Assembly: GCF_019334305.1 (NCBI RefSeq)
Contig: NZ_JAHWGH010000014.1
Coordinates: 1-64,000 of the forward strand
Direction of reading: 5' to 3'
Origin: Rossellomorea orangium
GTDB lineage: Bacteria; Bacillota; Bacilli; Bacillales; Bacillaceae_B
DNA: 64,000 nucleotides
In this document: one piece after another, positions 5,864-47,732 of the stretch
Numbering within the stretch: position 1 is the stretch's first letter
Layout: each line of letters begins with the position of its first letter
Program-made: the position numbers and the translations under genes
The notes under the pieces: model-generated
What the model saw: the letters and a program-made list of their open reading frames with translations, nothing else
What the model was told of the DNA's origin: nothing
Databases searched by the model: none

Positions 5864-5878
5864 TGATTATCATTCTCA
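5864..5878 (-). promoter_or_regulatory. Fur box for the reductase gene
   Basis: TGATTATCATTCTCA matches the 7-1-7 Fur consensus TGATAATNATTATCA at 12 of 14 informative positions. It lies 33 bases upstream of the reductase start. Confidence 0.7.
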
Positions 5879-5924
5879 ACTACATCCTACAACTTTTTTT
5901 CTTCCATGACAATAAAAATTTCTA

Positions 5925-5953
5925 TTGACATTAGGAAAAATGAATTATAGTAT
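5925..5953 (+). promoter_or_regulatory. SigmaA promoter of the siderophore transporter operon
   Basis: TTGACA at 5925-5930 is spaced by 17 bases from TAGTAT at 5948-5953. A Fur box begins 17 bases after the -10 element, where bound Fur would block transcription. Confidence 0.75.
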
Positions 5954-5969
5954 GGAAATTGTTCGAGAC

Positions 5970-5984
5970 TGATAATCATTATCA
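5970..5984 (+). promoter_or_regulatory. Perfect Fur box
   Basis: TGATAATCATTATCA is an exact 7-1-7 Fur inverted repeat, placed between the promoter and the first gene of the ferric-siderophore operon. Confidence 0.9.
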
Positions 5985-6024
5985 CTTAGATATTCACTCA
6001 CAATACTTTTTGGGAGGTTATAAA

Positions 6025-6870
6025 ATGGCACGCCTCTATACGGAGGATTTAAACATTGGCTATGGTGAGCGCTTAATCGTTAAGAATCTTAATGTCGTAA
6101 TCCCCGACAAGAAAATCACGACAATTATCGGCTCCAATGGATGTGGAAAGTCCACTTTACTGAAAGCGATTACCCGGATCATTTCCCATCAAACCGGGAA
6201 CGTGGTGTTGGATGGTGAAAATATTTCAAAAGGTGATACGAAGGAATTAGCTAAAAAGATGGCGATTCTTCCTCAGACACCAGAAAGTGCAAGTGGACTC
6301 TCGGTTGGTGAATTGGTGTCTTACGGACGTTTCCCCCACCAAAAAGGAATGGGTCGGCTGAAGAAGAAAGATTATGATGTGATTAATTGGGCCCTTGAAG
6401 TAACAGGAACACTCCAATTTAAGTACAGAGAAGTCGATGCATTATCAGGTGGTCAACGACAACGGGTATGGATCGCCATGGCGCTTGCCCAGGAAACGGA
6501 CATCATCTTCCTCGATGAACCTACTACATACTTAGACATGGCCCACCAGCTTGAAGTCCTTGAGCTGTTACAAAAGCTCAATCAGGAACAGGAACGCACC
6601 ATTGTGATGGTCTTGCACGATTTAAACCAGGCAGCCCGTTTTGCCGATTATATCGTAGCCTTAAAAGAAGGTGAGATTGTTAAATCGGGAAGTTGCGAAG
6701 AAGTCATCACACACGACGTATTGAAGAAGGTTTTTCAGATTGATGCCGAAATCGGGAGAGATCCTAGAACAAATAAACCAATGTGTATCACATATAACTT
6801 ACTCAAAGGAGAAGATCAACATGAAAAAATGGGTCATTCCATTCACTCTGCTGTTAGTGTTACTGGTTAG
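6025..6870 (+). CDS. Iron-siderophore ABC transporter ATP-binding protein (FecE/YusV-like)
   Basis: A 281-residue ABC ATPase. Walker A GSNGCGKST is near residues 37-45, the signature LSGGQRQR near 141-148, Walker B IIFLDEPT near 161-168 and the H-loop histidine in VLHDLNQ near 196-202. These are standard for the FepC/FecE class that powers uptake of ferric siderophores, heme or cobalamin; the Fur box upstream favours iron. The ATG at 6025 has GGGAGG nine bases upstream. Its last 50 bases overlap the start of the binding-protein gene in another frame, suggesting translational coupling. Confidence 0.9.
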   Translation: MARLYTEDLNIGYGERLIVKNLNVVIPDKKITTIIGSNGCGKSTLLKAITRIISHQTGNVVLDGENISKGDTKELAKKMAILPQTPESASGLSVGELVSYGRFPHQKGMGRLKKKDYDVINWALEVTGTLQFKYREVDALSGGQRQRVWIAMALAQETDIIFLDEPTTYLDMAHQLEVLELLQKLNQEQERTIVMVLHDLNQAARFADYIVALKEGEIVKSGSCEEVITHDVLKKVFQIDAEIGRDPRTNKPMCITYNLLKGEDQHEKMGHSIHSAVSVTG

Positions 6871-35295: not shown

Positions 35296-37266
35296 TTAAT
35301 CAAGTGAGCGCACATAATCGGCTATCTTTGACATCTCGATTTGACTAAGCTCTGGTTTTTCTTCATATTGATGACGCTCGATAGTCTCTTCAATCGTCTT
35401 TGCACTTCCATCATGAAGATATGGGCCAGTCGCCCACACACCGATCAGGCTGGGAGTATCAAAGCTCTTCCCATCCCGAGGATTTGTGAAGTCTGCTCTT
35501 GCGTCCCCCTTCGATGGTACATCAGATGGATTGGCCGTGCCGATATCATGGAGATAGTCTGTCATGCTTGTTGACAGCTCTCCATTTTCACCGGATGCTT
35601 TTACACTATCCGTAAATTGACGTCCGCTATGACAGGAAATGCAGGATGCTTTGCCTTCAAAGAGAATCTTCCCATCTTTAGCCGAGCTTGTTAATTCCCC
35701 GTTTTCCTTATAAGGACTCTGAGGTACGGGGAAAGATGCCGGTTCCTTCAGAAAAGCGAATAAGTCATCATACATCTTCTCGACATCTGCCGGCAACTCT
35801 TCGCCTGGCTCATACTTCATCATCCCGCCCATTTCACCTTGAACGGTCAGGAGATAGTCCGTGAAGTCATCCCGGCTGCCATCCCAAAGGAAGAGACCGT
35901 TTTCTGACGTTTGCGTGTTGGTCGGGACATTCCTCTGCCCCTTTCCTGTCATGAGAGTCAGGCCATTGATCTCTCCATCACTGTGACAGGACGCACAGCT
36001 CATCCAGTTGTTTCCGGTAATATCTGCTTCAAATTCCTCGCTGTTGGCGCTGTAAAAAATCGTTTTTCCTTTACGAATTTGCGGGTCCAGCGGATCCTTT
36101 TTAATTAAGGAAATGTTGTCATTAAGCTTTTTCGCCCTGGAATGTACAGATGCACCTCCAGAGTCAATGGTCGCAAGATCGTGACTCATGGCGTTATGGA
36201 CGTAGAGGGTTTCACCATCCTTACTCAACAGGATGCCACGGGGATTGTCCCCTTCGATCCTTCTTAGAATTTGGGTGGCATTACCACCTCGTTTCAGGTC
36301 AAAAACGACTAAATCTTCACTTCCTGACATCACTGCATATGCTTTGGACCCATCCTTCTGAAAACTTACGTCATAAGGGTTTGACACAATCATCGTTTCA
36401 TTTTTTGAATCCAGTACATTGATTTCATCAAACAATTCTTTTCTCTGATCCACTACCTCTTGATCTTTTTCAAGATCAATGACGGAAATGGCAGGAAAGA
36501 TCGTTTCTTCAAACTGTATGGCTGTATCGACATTGGTCACTAAATGCGGGACCCATGCCGTCTTCCCGTCAGGGGCAATGACAAATTGCTCAAGGGTGTT
36601 CGGGATTCCCTGGCTCTTTTTCCGGTCGGAAACATCAGGGGAGTCCGCAAGTTTGATCGTATTGACGACTTTTTTCTTTTCTGTATCCAATACAGATATC
36701 TCTCCGGATAAATAATGAGGGATATACAGCTTCTTCCCATCTGCTGTAAGAGCCATGGTTCTTGGTCGATCGTGAACGGCAAGCGTCTCTGTCACGTCGC
36801 CACTCTTCACATCAACCATCATGATCGTGCTTTCTCGATAATTGGCTACATACAAGGTCTTACCGTCCCTGCTTGTCATGAGACCAAAGGGTTCCGATCC
36901 CACTTCATAGGAATCTATTACTTTCTCTTCTTCCAATGAGACGACATCGATCTTATTATCGTATCGGCACGAAACATAAAGGCGGTCTTCATCCGGTGAC
37001 AACGCTAATTGGACCGGCTCATTTCCGACAGAGATTTCTTTTTGTACCTTCTGTGTCTTTTCATTCACTATGGAAACCGTGTTGGCATCGAGATTGGCGA
37101 TATATAGCTCTGTTCCTTCTTTATTTTGGAGGATGTTATCGCTATTGACTGCTTCTTTTCGAACTGTATCGAAGCTGGGGTCATCTTTGGTTGTCGTGTG
37201 AATTGAACATGCAACAAGCGTTCCTGCTATGAGAAACGCTGCCGCATATCCTATCATCTTCTTCAT
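35296..37266 (-). CDS. Beta-propeller/di-heme cytochrome c lipoprotein
   Basis: A 656-residue surface lipoprotein (lipobox LVACS, Cys20). Residues about 40-375 form a YVTN-type seven-bladed propeller with repeats such as LYIANLDANTVSIV, LYVSCRYDNKIDVV and LYVANYREST. The C-terminal part resembles bacterial di-heme cytochrome c peroxidase/MauG proteins, with heme motifs CASCH (Cys424-His428) and CISCH (Cys542-His546) and a late DTPSLIGVW and YLHDG segment. It would carry electrons or do oxidative chemistry outside the membrane. It is 12 bases downstream of the 687-residue lipoprotein with which it forms an operon. Confidence 0.8.
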   Translation of the reverse strand: MKKMIGYAAAFLIAGTLVACSIHTTTKDDPSFDTVRKEAVNSDNILQNKEGTELYIANLDANTVSIVNEKTQKVQKEISVGNEPVQLALSPDEDRLYVSCRYDNKIDVVSLEEEKVIDSYEVGSEPFGLMTSRDGKTLYVANYRESTIMMVDVKSGDVTETLAVHDRPRTMALTADGKKLYIPHYLSGEISVLDTEKKKVVNTIKLADSPDVSDRKKSQGIPNTLEQFVIAPDGKTAWVPHLVTNVDTAIQFEETIFPAISVIDLEKDQEVVDQRKELFDEINVLDSKNETMIVSNPYDVSFQKDGSKAYAVMSGSEDLVVFDLKRGGNATQILRRIEGDNPRGILLSKDGETLYVHNAMSHDLATIDSGGASVHSRAKKLNDNISLIKKDPLDPQIRKGKTIFYSANSEEFEADITGNNWMSCASCHSDGEINGLTLMTGKGQRNVPTNTQTSENGLFLWDGSRDDFTDYLLTVQGEMGGMMKYEPGEELPADVEKMYDDLFAFLKEPASFPVPQSPYKENGELTSSAKDGKILFEGKASCISCHSGRQFTDSVKASGENGELSTSMTDYLHDIGTANPSDVPSKGDARADFTNPRDGKSFDTPSLIGVWATGPYLHDGSAKTIEETIERHQYEEKPELSQIEMSKIADYVRSLD

Positions 37267-37278
37267 AGGATCCCTTCT

Positions 37279-39342
37279 TTATCGTTTTTCGACCGTGACA
37301 GGAAGCAATACAGGCGCTATCCCGTTTTTGCCATGTCCGGCTTGAACTTGTGGAACATTGTCCCCATCTGTATTCCCAGATGAATCCTTGCTGTCATAAT
37401 AATCCCCTGTATCCCAGAATTCACTCGCCTGCATTCCTTCTTTGAGGGACGGACCATCGATGACCGTGTCGTAGAAATCACTGTAGCGGGCGGTGATACC
37501 ATCGATTTCCAGGCTTTCAGGAGTTTCTGAATCTGATTCCCTGTTGCTTAAATTCTGCAGGGCAACCCTGTATATGGCAGACAATGCGCCTGCTGTATAT
37601 GGGGTATACTCCATTTTTCCTTCTGATGTTTCATAGGCTTTCAATTCATCATCCCAAAGCTTAGAATCCATCGCTTCATAAATGGAGCGGGCTGCTTCAC
37701 GATATTTCACATCATCAGTGGCTAAATAAGCTGCTGTTAATCCTCTGATCGCACCGAGTTGAGCATCTAATGTGACGTCATCATCCGCCCCTTTTTCGAT
37801 ATCAAAGCCTTTTGCTACAAGGCCTGAATCCATGACGAGGTTATCTAGCATGAAGTCTGCCTGCTTTCGGATCATTTCGAGTGCACGTTTCCCTTCAGGT
37901 GTCTTCAATCCTTCAGCTGACTCCCCTGAAGCGTATCCGACAGGAAGCCCATCGATGGCCCGCTTAAAGATCCTCATCGATTCCATTGTGTATCCTGCCT
38001 GGAACGTATCCATATAGGTCCCTTGTTCTTTCCCATCATTTTCTGTTACGAACATTCCTTTATCGTCATTGAAATGCATGGCATCAATATTCTTGAATAC
38101 ATGGAGCATCACATTCTGATTGGCCGTGAAAGGATCTGTTCCGTTCACGTCGTTTTCAGGTGAGTCATCCGTATTTTCTTTAGGTGCAGAAGGATACGGT
38201 GCTCCGTCAAACAGCGCCTGGAATGATGGCGTCTTGTTCGGGTTGCTTTCTCTTTGGTCCGTCATCCCGTAGAATTCCGAACTCGGCCAAAGCATCATCC
38301 ACTGGTCTTCTAGAACACTGTTTGAATCCTTAATAGACAGTGACTTTACGTTTGGTGCCTGTTTACCGTCTTCGGTCACTTCTACACTATGTGGTAAGTA
38401 CACGAATCCTTTGGCAGGATCATACTGGCTTCCCAGGCCCGCAGCCGTCAATTTTCCTGTCGTGCCATCCACAAATAACTCATTCGAAACATAATTTACT
38501 TTATTCCAAATTTCTTCGGTCAGAACCGCTCCCTGGAAACCATCAGCTGAGCTGACCCCCAGCGCAACATTTTGATCATCGTCATCCTTTGACGTTTCTC
38601 CTGCCAATTCTTCATCAGCATCAATCGTATGGAACCCCCCCATGAAGTCCCCGGCCCATAGCGCCTGCTTCAAGAACGTTGCCCCATAAGCGGAAGGAAC
38701 AAGGGTCTTCTCCATTTTCTCACGGTCCCAGCGGAGTGATTCAAAGTTTACTTGATACATAGGCACATAGCTTCCGTCATCATTGGATGCGTATTCACTT
38801 GTATCTACTTCGTTTTTATAATGTGGGTCACCAGCAGAGTATTCGATAAATGTCGGATACATATTTCGGAATATCTCATCCTGTGGATAACCGACAGCAT
38901 CGGCTAATTCATAAAAACGGTTCCCTAATTTTTCATCAGGCGTTTTCCCATTTTGAAGGGTCTCAACCGCAGGGCCATTGATCAGATGCAGTCCCATTCC
39001 GGACTTTTCAACGACTTCATACATGGCTTCCTCTGAGTACTCATAGGATTCAACGCCGGCTGTATAATCAAATTTTGTTGGCTGATCCAACTTGTTGATA
39101 TCCAATATATCTAAATCCAGGCCCAGACTTTCTGCAAGCGGCTCGCCGGATAATTCAAATTCTGCATAAGCAAACATATTACCGGCGGTATCAAAAGTAT
39201 AATCGGATACTTTCACCTTGCTTGCTGCCGTTTTCTTTTCTCCATCTGATTTCGAAACTTCTTCCTTATCACTGACACACCCAGCAAGTAATAGTGAAGA
39301 AGCCAATACAGATGCAGATAATACTTTCCATGGTTTGTTCAT
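37279..39342 (-). CDS. Large lipoprotein of unknown function, Fur-box preceded
   Basis: A 687-residue protein with a lipoprotein signal (LLLAGC, Cys22) and no membrane helix after it. Residues about 60-400 are acidic and not recognised. Residues about 410-610 look helical with spacing like an alpha/alpha-barrel (RGLTAAYLATDDVKYREAARS, YEAMDSKLWDDELKAYET). I do not recognise a family. It is first in an operon with the di-heme lipoprotein, and Fur-like boxes lie 36 and 74 bases upstream. A role in iron acquisition or in maturation of the partner is inference only. GAGGGG precedes the ATG by nine bases. Confidence 0.75.
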   Translation of the reverse strand: MNKPWKVLSASVLASSLLLAGCVSDKEEVSKSDGEKKTAASKVKVSDYTFDTAGNMFAYAEFELSGEPLAESLGLDLDILDINKLDQPTKFDYTAGVESYEYSEEAMYEVVEKSGMGLHLINGPAVETLQNGKTPDEKLGNRFYELADAVGYPQDEIFRNMYPTFIEYSAGDPHYKNEVDTSEYASNDDGSYVPMYQVNFESLRWDREKMEKTLVPSAYGATFLKQALWAGDFMGGFHTIDADEELAGETSKDDDDQNVALGVSSADGFQGAVLTEEIWNKVNYVSNELFVDGTTGKLTAAGLGSQYDPAKGFVYLPHSVEVTEDGKQAPNVKSLSIKDSNSVLEDQWMMLWPSSEFYGMTDQRESNPNKTPSFQALFDGAPYPSAPKENTDDSPENDVNGTDPFTANQNVMLHVFKNIDAMHFNDDKGMFVTENDGKEQGTYMDTFQAGYTMESMRIFKRAIDGLPVGYASGESAEGLKTPEGKRALEMIRKQADFMLDNLVMDSGLVAKGFDIEKGADDDVTLDAQLGAIRGLTAAYLATDDVKYREAARSIYEAMDSKLWDDELKAYETSEGKMEYTPYTAGALSAIYRVALQNLSNRESDSETPESLEIDGITARYSDFYDTVIDGPSLKEGMQASEFWDTGDYYDSKDSSGNTDGDNVPQVQAGHGKNGIAPVLLPVTVEKR
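37442..37455. repeat. Family A repeat core inside a coding region
   Basis: TTGAGGGACGGACC matches 14 of the 15 end bases of repeat family A, but lies within the reading frame of the 687-residue lipoprotein, where it encodes part of DGPSLKEG. No second arm is seen nearby. Confidence 0.5.
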
Positions 39343-39377
39343 TCTATGTAACCCCTCTCAACGATCACGAACCATTC

Positions 39378-39396
39378 GAGAATGATTCTCATTACT
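39378..39396 (-). promoter_or_regulatory. Fur box upstream of the lipoprotein operon
   Basis: GAGAATGATTCTCATTACT fits the 19-base Fur consensus at 14 positions. A second palindrome, TTGAGAAATAATCTCAA (39416-39432), also resembles a Fur half-site pair. Both precede the 687-residue lipoprotein gene. Confidence 0.65.
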
Positions 39397-39553
39397 GTTT
39401 ATCATTATAGTGTAGTTGAGAAATAATCTCAATAAGAATTTCATATTTAAATGAAACGGTTTCACAACCCTATCAGATTACATCCATTTTTTTGAAACTT
39501 TATGATTTTGAAAAACGTAATCTATGTATACAAAAAAAGGAAGAGTGATAAAA

Positions 39554-45779: not shown

Positions 45780-45792
45780 GAGGGACGGACCT
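45780..45792. repeat. Solo arm of repeat family A at the sqhC stop
   Basis: GAGGGACGGACCT is present once, without its inverse partner. Its last base is the first base of the TCA that reads TGA, the stop codon of sqhC, on the minus strand. Confidence 0.75.
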
Positions 45793-47660
45793 CAACCGTA
45801 TTTCTCTTTGTACCTGCTGAGTGTGATGAGTGGCCATATCCATTGGTAGCTGTGGTAATGGATGTAGAAGTTTCCCGGAAGGCCGGCTCCGGTTGGATAT
45901 GTTTTGGCGTTATCTCCTGCCGTTCCATTCATCAATTCGAGAAGAGACATCATCCCAAGATCGATGGCAGGTGTCGGTTTGTCTTCGATACAGATGAGAG
46001 ATTCAAGCGCCCATGCCGTTTGTGAAGGGGTACTGAATGTTAGGGGTACGAAAGTCTTTTCCTGATCGCTGTAACAGGACTCCCCCCAACCCCCGTCTTT
46101 TTGTTGAATGCTTTCCAACCAGACTTTGGCCCTTTGAAGATGTTTATCCGATGGCAGGACCCCCACTGCATTCATTCCCGTGACGGCAGCCCATGTTCCA
46201 TAAATGAAGCAAACACCCCAGCGACCGTACCAGGAACCATCATCTTGTTGCATGAGTTTCAGCCACTCAACACCCTTTTTCACCTTTGGATGGTCCTTTG
46301 ACAATCCTGTCCTGCCCCCGAGAAATTCAAGCGCTCTCCCTGTTAGATCAGGAGTGGAAGGATCGAGGGCCGCTGCCTCTGCCCCATCCATTGGAAAAGA
46401 AGTAAGGATCGTTTTCGTCTTATTTTTTTCAAAAGCAGGCCACCCCCCATCCCGGTTTTGCAACCCAAAAGTCCATTCAACCCCCCGATCCCACGATGGC
46501 CGGATCGAGGGTTTATCTGCAGCGGAATATGTGATGGCCCTGAGAGCAGCTGTCGTATCATCCACATCGGGATGGATACTGTTGCTCTCTGAAAATCCCC
46601 ATCCCCCGGGCATCACTCCACTTTCATATGCCCAGTCTCCATACTTGAAGTGTTGCTTCTTAAGAAGATAATCCACTGATTTTTCAATGGAAGCTTCTCC
46701 TGCCTCCATCCCCGCTTCCTGCAAGGCATAGCTTATCAGGGCTGTATCCCATACGGTCGAAGGAGAATTCTGGATATGAATGCCTTTCTTCGTTTCACAG
46801 GCCATTTCTTTTAATCCCTGTAACGCCTTTACAATGATGGGATCAGTCTTTTTATACCCTGTGGCCAACAGGGCATAAATCATATAGAACGTCGTGCTGA
46901 AGTAGCTGAGATAAGTCCCGTCCCGTTCCGTCCGTTGCAGCATGTACTCCAGGGCAAACTGCCTTGCTTGTTGATGAAGATGGGAGGGGATACTCGCAAG
47001 TGCCTGAATGCCTTCATTAATTTTAGAAAATAGTCTCAACTCACGGTCGTTGTACCTCATTTCGTCAACAGGACGGGAAAGATTCTGTATATACGGCGTG
47101 TTGCTTGTTCTGATAGTGAATCGCTGATCTTTCAGTAACATCATCGGAGCCAGGTGACCACGGGCATAACTGCTTAAATCCCAGAAATTCAGGGGGAATG
47201 TTTTCGGGAGCAGCAGGAATTCAATGGGGATCGGCATGAGGTGCTTCCAGTCATATTGACCATGAACGGCCAGCATGAATTTTGTAATGGAATGAGCCTT
47301 GTGAAATCCCCCTTTTCTCTCTATGAATTGTTCGGCTCTCAGAAGTCTTATATCCTCTTCACTCACCATACCACTGTATCTCAGGGCAAAGTATGCTTCG
47401 ATGGTAGATGACAGATTCCCTTCCTTTTCATCTTCAAAGAGCTTCCATGTCCCCTCCGCTGTCTGCAATTTCCAAAGCCGGTCGACCAGGCGCACGATGA
47501 GTTCATCCTCATCGGTCTCAAGTGAACGGAGAAGGATGATCATATATGCATCGGTCATCACACTATTTTCAAAACAAAAGGACCAGCTTCCTTCTGCACT
47601 TTGCATCTTCAGAAGATGCTGTTTCATATTTCTGATCGTTTTTTCTATGTTTTTTTTCAT
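45792..47660 (-). CDS. sqhC: Squalene-hopene cyclase
   Basis: A 622-residue membrane-associated terpene cyclase turning squalene or, in Bacillus, related C35 polyprenes into hopanoid-like lipids. The catalytic DVDDTTA motif (DxDDTA) is near residue 370 and at least five QW-type repeats are visible (for example GSWSFCFE, GTWKLFED, GGWPAFE, GSWYGRWG, GGWGESC). ATG at 47660 is preferred because GGGAGG is seven bases upstream; 47663 would be too close. Its product may strengthen FloT-type membrane domains, though this is inference. Confidence 0.92.
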   Translation of the reverse strand: MKKNIEKTIRNMKQHLLKMQSAEGSWSFCFENSVMTDAYMIILLRSLETDEDELIVRLVDRLWKLQTAEGTWKLFEDEKEGNLSSTIEAYFALRYSGMVSEEDIRLLRAEQFIERKGGFHKAHSITKFMLAVHGQYDWKHLMPIPIEFLLLPKTFPLNFWDLSSYARGHLAPMMLLKDQRFTIRTSNTPYIQNLSRPVDEMRYNDRELRLFSKINEGIQALASIPSHLHQQARQFALEYMLQRTERDGTYLSYFSTTFYMIYALLATGYKKTDPIIVKALQGLKEMACETKKGIHIQNSPSTVWDTALISYALQEAGMEAGEASIEKSVDYLLKKQHFKYGDWAYESGVMPGGWGFSESNSIHPDVDDTTAALRAITYSAADKPSIRPSWDRGVEWTFGLQNRDGGWPAFEKNKTKTILTSFPMDGAEAAALDPSTPDLTGRALEFLGGRTGLSKDHPKVKKGVEWLKLMQQDDGSWYGRWGVCFIYGTWAAVTGMNAVGVLPSDKHLQRAKVWLESIQQKDGGWGESCYSDQEKTFVPLTFSTPSQTAWALESLICIEDKPTPAIDLGMMSLLELMNGTAGDNAKTYPTGAGLPGNFYIHYHSYQWIWPLITLSRYKEKYG

Positions 47661-47732
47661 CATATGTCCTCCCACATAGCTTCTCTGTTGTTATGTATAT
47701 GAGAAGAACACGGGTACTAGTAGTGAGAAGCA

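Follow-up and report, generated by a model that had tools for sequence, protein, structure and literature searches.

A conserved gene pair for a di-heme propeller lipoprotein and a partner of an unnamed family in Rossellomorea orangium, and its possible link to an FTR1-type iron importer

We analysed a 64,000-nucleotide stretch of DNA, hereafter the window, from Rossellomorea orangium (positions 1-64,000 of contig NZ_JAHWGH010000014.1, assembly GCF_019334305.1), which encodes on its minus strand two adjacent predicted lipoproteins together with the features described below. Gene A (37279..39342, read from 39342 to 37279) encodes a 687-residue protein of an unnamed family with a predicted (alpha/alpha)6 toroid. 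Gene B (35296..37266, read from 37266 to 35296) follows after a gap of 12 bases and encodes 656 residues with a propeller and a di-heme part. Both open reading frames (ORFs) begin with a signal peptide followed by a motif which we take to be a lipobox, namely LLLAGC in A, with Cys22 (39277..39279) invariant in 32/32 aligned relatives, and TLVAC in B, with Cys20 (37207..37209) kept in 28/29, and both products might accordingly be lipid-anchored outside the cytoplasm. B contains the heme motifs CASCH (residues 424-428; 35983..35997) and CISCH (residues 542-546; 35629..35643), and both CxxCH motifs were present in all 29 aligned relatives. Invariant in the same 29 sequences are Trp461 (35884..35886), which aligns with the WDG tryptophan of bacterial peroxidases and presumably has an inter-heme role, and Glu478 (35833..35835), which by hand alignment is a candidate for what we assume to be the distal acid.

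Upstream of gene A lies what we take to be a sigma-A-like promoter (TTGAGA, 17 bases, TATAAT; 39404..39432), from which both genes would be co-transcribed. A Fur-like box of the 7-1-7 type, TGAGAATCATTCTCG, is located just 3' of the -10 element (39377..39391), and a second palindrome, TTGAGATTATTTCTCAA, covers the -35 element and the spacer (39416..39432). The original prediction had described the pair as preceded by one Fur-like box and a second Fur-like palindrome. Both elements are indeed present, but the palindrome overlaps the promoter and is by itself a poor Fur box (10/14 by hand count). In an alignment of eight near relatives, every one has largely preserved the palindrome. Six of them (L002-L005, L007 and L051) share the exact TGAGAATCATTCTCG box, and L006 and L008 carry a different Fur-like form. 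In the 4.57-Mb genome the exact 15-mer occurs twice, and with one mismatch allowed there were 7 matches per strand versus 1 and 3 for a reversed-pattern control. Related boxes in this genome precede genes for an IucA/IucC siderophore synthetase and for a siderophore-type binding protein (Peripla_BP_2) and also adjoin an ABC ATPase gene. Further ones lie in or beside genes without an obvious role in iron metabolism (COX1, DUF997, ICMT).

Fur-like boxes were then scored as the best 7-1-7 match in the 300 bases upstream of A in 60 named relatives. The score was at least 12/14 in 40 of them and at least 11/14 in 50, with a mean of 12.0. Mononucleotide shuffles of these regions averaged 9.1, with maxima per locus ranging from 10 to 13. 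From these sequence patterns we consider it probable that A and B form an operon under Fur control that is repressed by iron, in which case Fur would bind upstream of A and expression would respond to iron. At positions 5864-6870 of the window, two other Fur-like boxes (5864 and 5970) are flanked by genes for a pyridine-nucleotide reductase and an ABC ATPase.

The two genes proved to be tightly paired. Because genome contigs were scanned for gene A with six short peptide patterns, only near relatives were recovered, and these amounted to 60 loci at 54-94% identity, which we take, by genus or record title, to belong to the Bacillota. Gene B was found directly downstream of A in 60/60 of these loci, split into two frames in L016. 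A occurred in 28/299 genomes of the order of the window's organism, and full-length B occurred in exactly those 28; among the matches listed, the remaining B matches comprised the propeller part alone, with the exception of two C-terminal remnants. One of these (L122:4950-5277, genome G131 of the window's genus) is an internal deletion with intact flanks, in which what is left of A (residues 1-22) adjoins what is left of B (residues 568-656), by arithmetic in a different frame. The other (L123:4837-5052, genome G055) is a decayed tail of B between genes that by eye resemble DUF2325 and ZnuA. These remnants indicate that A and B were lost together in both genomes. Across 29 aligned rows (406 pairs), the pairwise distances of A correlated with those of B (r 0.89), A being the less diverged protein in 359/406 pairs. 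The pair is thus real and conserved, and the check on co-occurrence across genomes that had been proposed for it came out in favour of a linked unit. In a search for gene A across the phylum, in which two candidates per genome were scored, 2/398 genomes matched, one being the window's own and the other from the same order.

Gene B showed matches to two Pfam families, the lactonase/YVTN propeller at about residues 43-390 (E 2.8e-16) and CCP_MauG at about residues 395-655 (E 3.3e-9; 38 bits with a cut-off of 25.6). Together with the two heme motifs, this confirmed the earlier description of a YVTN propeller fused to a di-heme MauG/peroxidase-like part. There was in addition a trace of DHOR in Pfam (E 0.037). 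Scores for hydrazine synthase remained well below the curated cut-offs (102.8 versus 560 for HzsB, 39.5 versus 625 for HzsC, and 109.5 versus 1250 bits for the fused form), which sets B apart from HzsB-HzsC. The distal ligand of the second heme in MauG and MbnH enzymes is a tyrosine; in B, the position at about 632, which was aligned by hand and adjoins a gap, is His in 14/29 relatives and variable in the others.

For the gene A product no Pfam family was found at E up to 1 and no NCBIfam family, and a sequence search of the PDB yielded nothing convincing. We therefore rejected an assignment to a curated family on these searches, in keeping with the first description of the protein as belonging to no recognised family, and the lead to its function comes from the fold alone. 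The structure was predicted as an (alpha/alpha)6 toroid (predicted template modelling score 0.88). Sugar epimerases and glycosidases share this fold, and A resembles them by fold and not by sequence. Within the family, 11/32 members matched C5-epim_C (best E 0.0015) and one of the 32 matched GH88 (E 1.9e-6). The family is highly conserved: the alignment contained 174 columns invariant in 32 sequences, of which a homologue from Aeromonas keeps 132. A viral origin was rejected, since no gene A homologue was found among 50,697 phage records. Residues 5-80 of A have a second, weak match (42%, E 6.5e-5) in a 459-residue frame of locus L089 (G200:C16:14577-14792).

Like the MbnH-MbnP, CorB-CorA and MauG systems, the locus combines a di-heme enzyme of CCP/MauG type with a surface partner beside it, and by this analogy, which was already drawn in the original prediction, A might be acted on by B as a substrate or might be a metal carrier. 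A maturation pair of this kind (as in MbnH-MbnP, CorB-CorA or MauG-MADH) would mean that B, once activated by peroxide, converts conserved tryptophans or tyrosines in A by oxidation into a metal-binding or redox site. The strict adjacency of the genes, the scores of B with MbnH, MauG and CCP families, the invariant Trp461 and Glu478 of B, and six tryptophans of A (Trp205, 229, 279, 348, 352 and 643) kept in 32/32 aligned relatives would all be consistent with this. However, B stays far under the NCBIfam cut-offs for MbnH (64.2 versus 362.85 bits) and MauG (51.2 versus 443.85 bits), Trp279 is substituted in the Aeromonas protein, and the large, enzyme-like toroid of A is unlike MbnP and CorA, which are small proteins. 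The pair also differs from these systems in being linked to iron and not to copper. Against a strict substrate relationship, two annotated Aeromonas plasmids carry A homologues flanked by glgC and insertion sequence (IS) elements with no di-heme gene beside them, and the one plasmid record searched whole gave no B match, the search covering the plasmid record only. We consider such a maturation pair unlikely for A and B, notwithstanding the CorA-CorB precedent (PMC3912023).

A genome search for TGAGAATCATTCTCG-type boxes led to a second lipoprotein gene, P0001, which encodes 395 residues and has two Fur-like boxes. Its product weakly matches the 'FEA1-related lipoprotein' family NF038033 (31.1 bits, E 9.5e-8, below the cut-off of 250), a profile that was applied to P0001 alone. 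P0001 matches were found in 80/299 genomes, comprising 28/28 genomes with the A-B pair and 52/271 others (Fisher 1.6e-18, uncorrected for ancestry), and a Fur-like box of at least 12/14 was present upstream of P0001-type genes in 18/21 loci read. In the window genome the gene lies outside the window at G000:C3:306245-313500 (L147, L188), in the order P0001, epimerase, LPG-synthase-TM protein, phosphodiesterase, GT2 glycosyltransferase, secreted AYSY protein, FTR1 and membrane protein, with Fur-like boxes preceding P0001 and the AYSY gene; the AYSY protein and the last membrane protein are unnamed. The order was much alike in five other loci read, L190 being without the epimerase. In this locus an FTR1 importer is joined by glycan genes. 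No P0001 match was found beside the pair in loci L001-L089.

The FTR1 of this locus belongs to a class that we termed short FTR1, as set by our own selection. Short FTR1 was found in 77/299 genomes, each of which also has a P0001 match, with the two genes at most 10 kb apart in 72/77. It was present in 28/28 genomes with the pair, in each as the single FTR1 match, and in 49/271 others. As a control, longer or other FTR1 forms were found in 50 genomes, none of which carries the pair (0/28 versus 50/271, p 0.007). The suspicion of an iron-handling role that the pair had raised is in this way supported at the level of gene content. The link itself, by which all 28 pair genomes contain a locus with short FTR1 and an FEA1-like lipoprotein that is not linked to the pair, emerged here and is new. 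DyP peroxidase, the EfeB type, had no match in any of the 28 pair genomes. Since the pair is confined to short-FTR1 genomes among the bacilli examined, it is probably an accessory of that import system.

The glycan genes of this locus and the fold of A also bear on another explanation, in which A would be a glycan-active or glycan-binding (alpha/alpha)6 enzyme acting on an iron-regulated surface glycan or glycolipid, B would oxidise the same polymer, and iron import would share nothing with them except the signal. A toroid fold in itself shows no activity, and apart from the single GH88 match no curated glycosidase family was reached, so that this explanation appears doubtful to us.

Homologues were also found outside the Bacillota, and the assignment of the system to Gram-positive bacteria in the original prediction was too narrow. 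Homologues of A occur on three Aeromonas plasmid records. A. caviae KAM479 has its A homologue on a chromosome-sized record, 1 kb past a divergent set of siderophore-type genes (L181:1947-11935), with one small ORF in between by eye. This set encodes a chorismate-binding enzyme, an AMP ligase and a nonribosomal peptide synthetase (all by Pfam) as well as, by eye, an isochorismatase-like protein, and a perfect Fur box precedes its chorismate-binding gene. Beyond the A homologue lies glgC, and the same A-glgC block occurs on IS-rich Aeromonas plasmids. The single B match of the KAM479 record, about 81 kb from the A homologue, is a 989-residue protein with a propeller and a multiheme part (L183:6368-10176), and the end of its reading frame runs into the start of an FTR1 gene. 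This FTR1 is 35% identical to that of the window genome, and two more genes in its cluster correspond to those for AYSY (E 6e-15) and for the membrane protein (E 2e-17) in the Bacillota locus. A search for P0001 in A. caviae, made without a positive control, gave no match. The plasmid collection, searched with the propeller of the 989-residue protein at E 1e-20, yielded no more than the record it came from and B of an Anoxybacillus pair.

These arrangements are relevant to the possibility that B is a surface peroxidase which shields iron-starved cells from peroxide, with the co-occurrence of FTR1 arising from lifestyle or ancestry. Iron starvation and peroxide stress are frequently linked, and the di-heme part of B resembles CCP peroxidases. 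A shielding function would, however, account for neither the fixed partner A nor the overlapping genes of the B homologue and FTR1 in A. caviae, and we regard it as improbable.

The explanation that we favour, tentatively and at somewhat short of an even chance, is that A and B are an iron-repressed, lipid-anchored redox accessory of an FTR1 importer lacking EfeB, with A as the dedicated partner of B. The two extracytoplasmic lipoproteins of one Fur-repressed operon would assist the importer encoded elsewhere in the genome. B would provide the redox step, most likely by oxidising Fe(II) at the cell surface with peroxide or oxygen as acceptor, and would stand in place of the DyP-type EfeB or the Fet3 of known systems. 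The resulting Fe(III) might pass to the FEA1-like lipoprotein and from there to the FTR1 permease. A might contact B directly and dock it on an iron-holding surface glycan or ligand, or might itself act on such a ligand. By analogy with FTR1 systems that contain a redox enzyme, we infer B to be the Fe(II)-oxidising step and A its partner. If B is the redox partner of this importer, relatives of di-heme MauG/CCP proteins would gain a role in iron import. The bacilli that carry these genes can be cultured and are not known as pathogens, which makes the proposal open to direct tests.

Several observations weigh against this explanation. The pair and FTR1 lie on different contigs or more than 200 kb apart in 28/28 genomes, as compared by eye, and the pair is absent from 49/77 short-FTR1 genomes, so FTR1 does not need it. 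The lack of DyP extends to 73/77 short-FTR1 genomes and is not specific to the pair (p 0.29), the four with DyP each having it near a second, longer FTR1; it is therefore a trait of this type of FTR1 and not of the pair alone. Shared ancestry may be part of the nesting, and the within-family test for P0001 was weaker (product 2e-5, among the matches listed). The P0001 match is just about 30-40% identical in 13/28 pair genomes and looks broken in two of the 28 (G040, G291). The best Fur-like box scores at most 10 in 10/60 upstream regions, with a score of 10 in seven Geobacillus/Anoxybacillus-type loci and the chance level of 8-9 in L011, L035 and L045. As the window's own box also scores just 11/14, the case for Fur control is made by the conservation of boxes in different genera and not by one individual site. 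The structural model of B is poor in the heme part, where 10-residue means of the predicted local distance difference test range from 41 to 81 and are mostly below 65. The gene overlap in A. caviae ties B to FTR1 more strongly than any other observation, yet it comes from one genome, and the homologue concerned matches B over residues 53-546 only, at 29% identity, and has a multiheme end.

The closest known systems are EfeUOB (YwbLMN) and Fet3-Ftr1, which according to PMC9174327 combine an FTR1-family permease with an extracytoplasmic redox enzyme, as would the system proposed here. In yeast, Fet3p oxidises the iron that Ftr1p takes up; the redox component of EfeUOB is the heme peroxidase EfeB, although what exactly it does is unsettled (PMC9174327, PMC7676907). 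EfeUOB operons are often iron-regulated (PMC3577903). Unlike EfeUOB, the present system comes without a DyP match in any of the 28 genomes with the pair, and its candidate redox protein is a di-heme propeller lipoprotein whose gene is linked to FTR1 in none of them. PMC3143127 describes Fur-regulated operons of an imelysin and a di-heme peroxidase (PA4370-PA4373), which likewise place a Fur-linked extracytoplasmic partner next to a di-heme peroxidase-like protein. B differs by its YVTN propeller and mere trace of DHOR, and A by its toroid model. Neither A nor P0001 had an imelysin match in Pfam, the genomes not having been searched for EfeO/imelysin, and A as an imelysin was rejected for want of such a match.

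Relatives of FEA1 bind or concentrate iron at algal surfaces, the role of FEA1 itself being debated (PMC4855317, PMC7676907). All 28 genomes with the pair combine FTR1 with a match to the FEA1-like lipoprotein, an arrangement that resembles the algal FEA1/FTR1/ferroxidase system and differs from it by the weak FEA1 match of P0001 and by a candidate oxidase that is di-heme and not multicopper. We read the pair as a variation on the FTR1/peroxidase theme, its partner protein coming from an unnamed family. A bolder joint proposal would see B as a new class of ferroxidase that replaces Fet3/EfeB and feeds FTR1 through a phytotransferrin-like FEA1 lipoprotein, with A matured by B or binding glycan, the FTR1 locus also building a dedicated surface glycan, and the whole forming a heme-driven, glycan-linked iron capture in Bacillota and Aeromonas; we think it quite unlikely that all of this applies together. 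Titles and the beginnings of abstracts in the literature, with few subscription journals included, mentioned neither an A-B pair nor a di-heme partner of FTR1.

The genes flanking the pair vary between lineages, which ruled out a conserved larger operon around A and B. Neighbours were counted in 55/60 loci (L039, L040, L047, L057 and L060, without a clean ORF call, were left out), and one member of each cluster was searched for its family. Upstream of the pair, DUF2325 (14 loci) and an unnamed 181-residue protein (12 loci) recurred, for example at L016:9055-9903. A gene for a DoxX/MauE-like membrane protein, with Pfam scores under the cut-off in the one member searched, lies directly upstream of A in 6/55 loci (for example L011:9345-9875), and a ZnuA-type gene is found nearby downstream of the pair in 10 loci. 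Elsewhere in the window, at 45792-47675, an ORF for which no search was made resembles by eye a squalene-hopene-cyclase-type protein.
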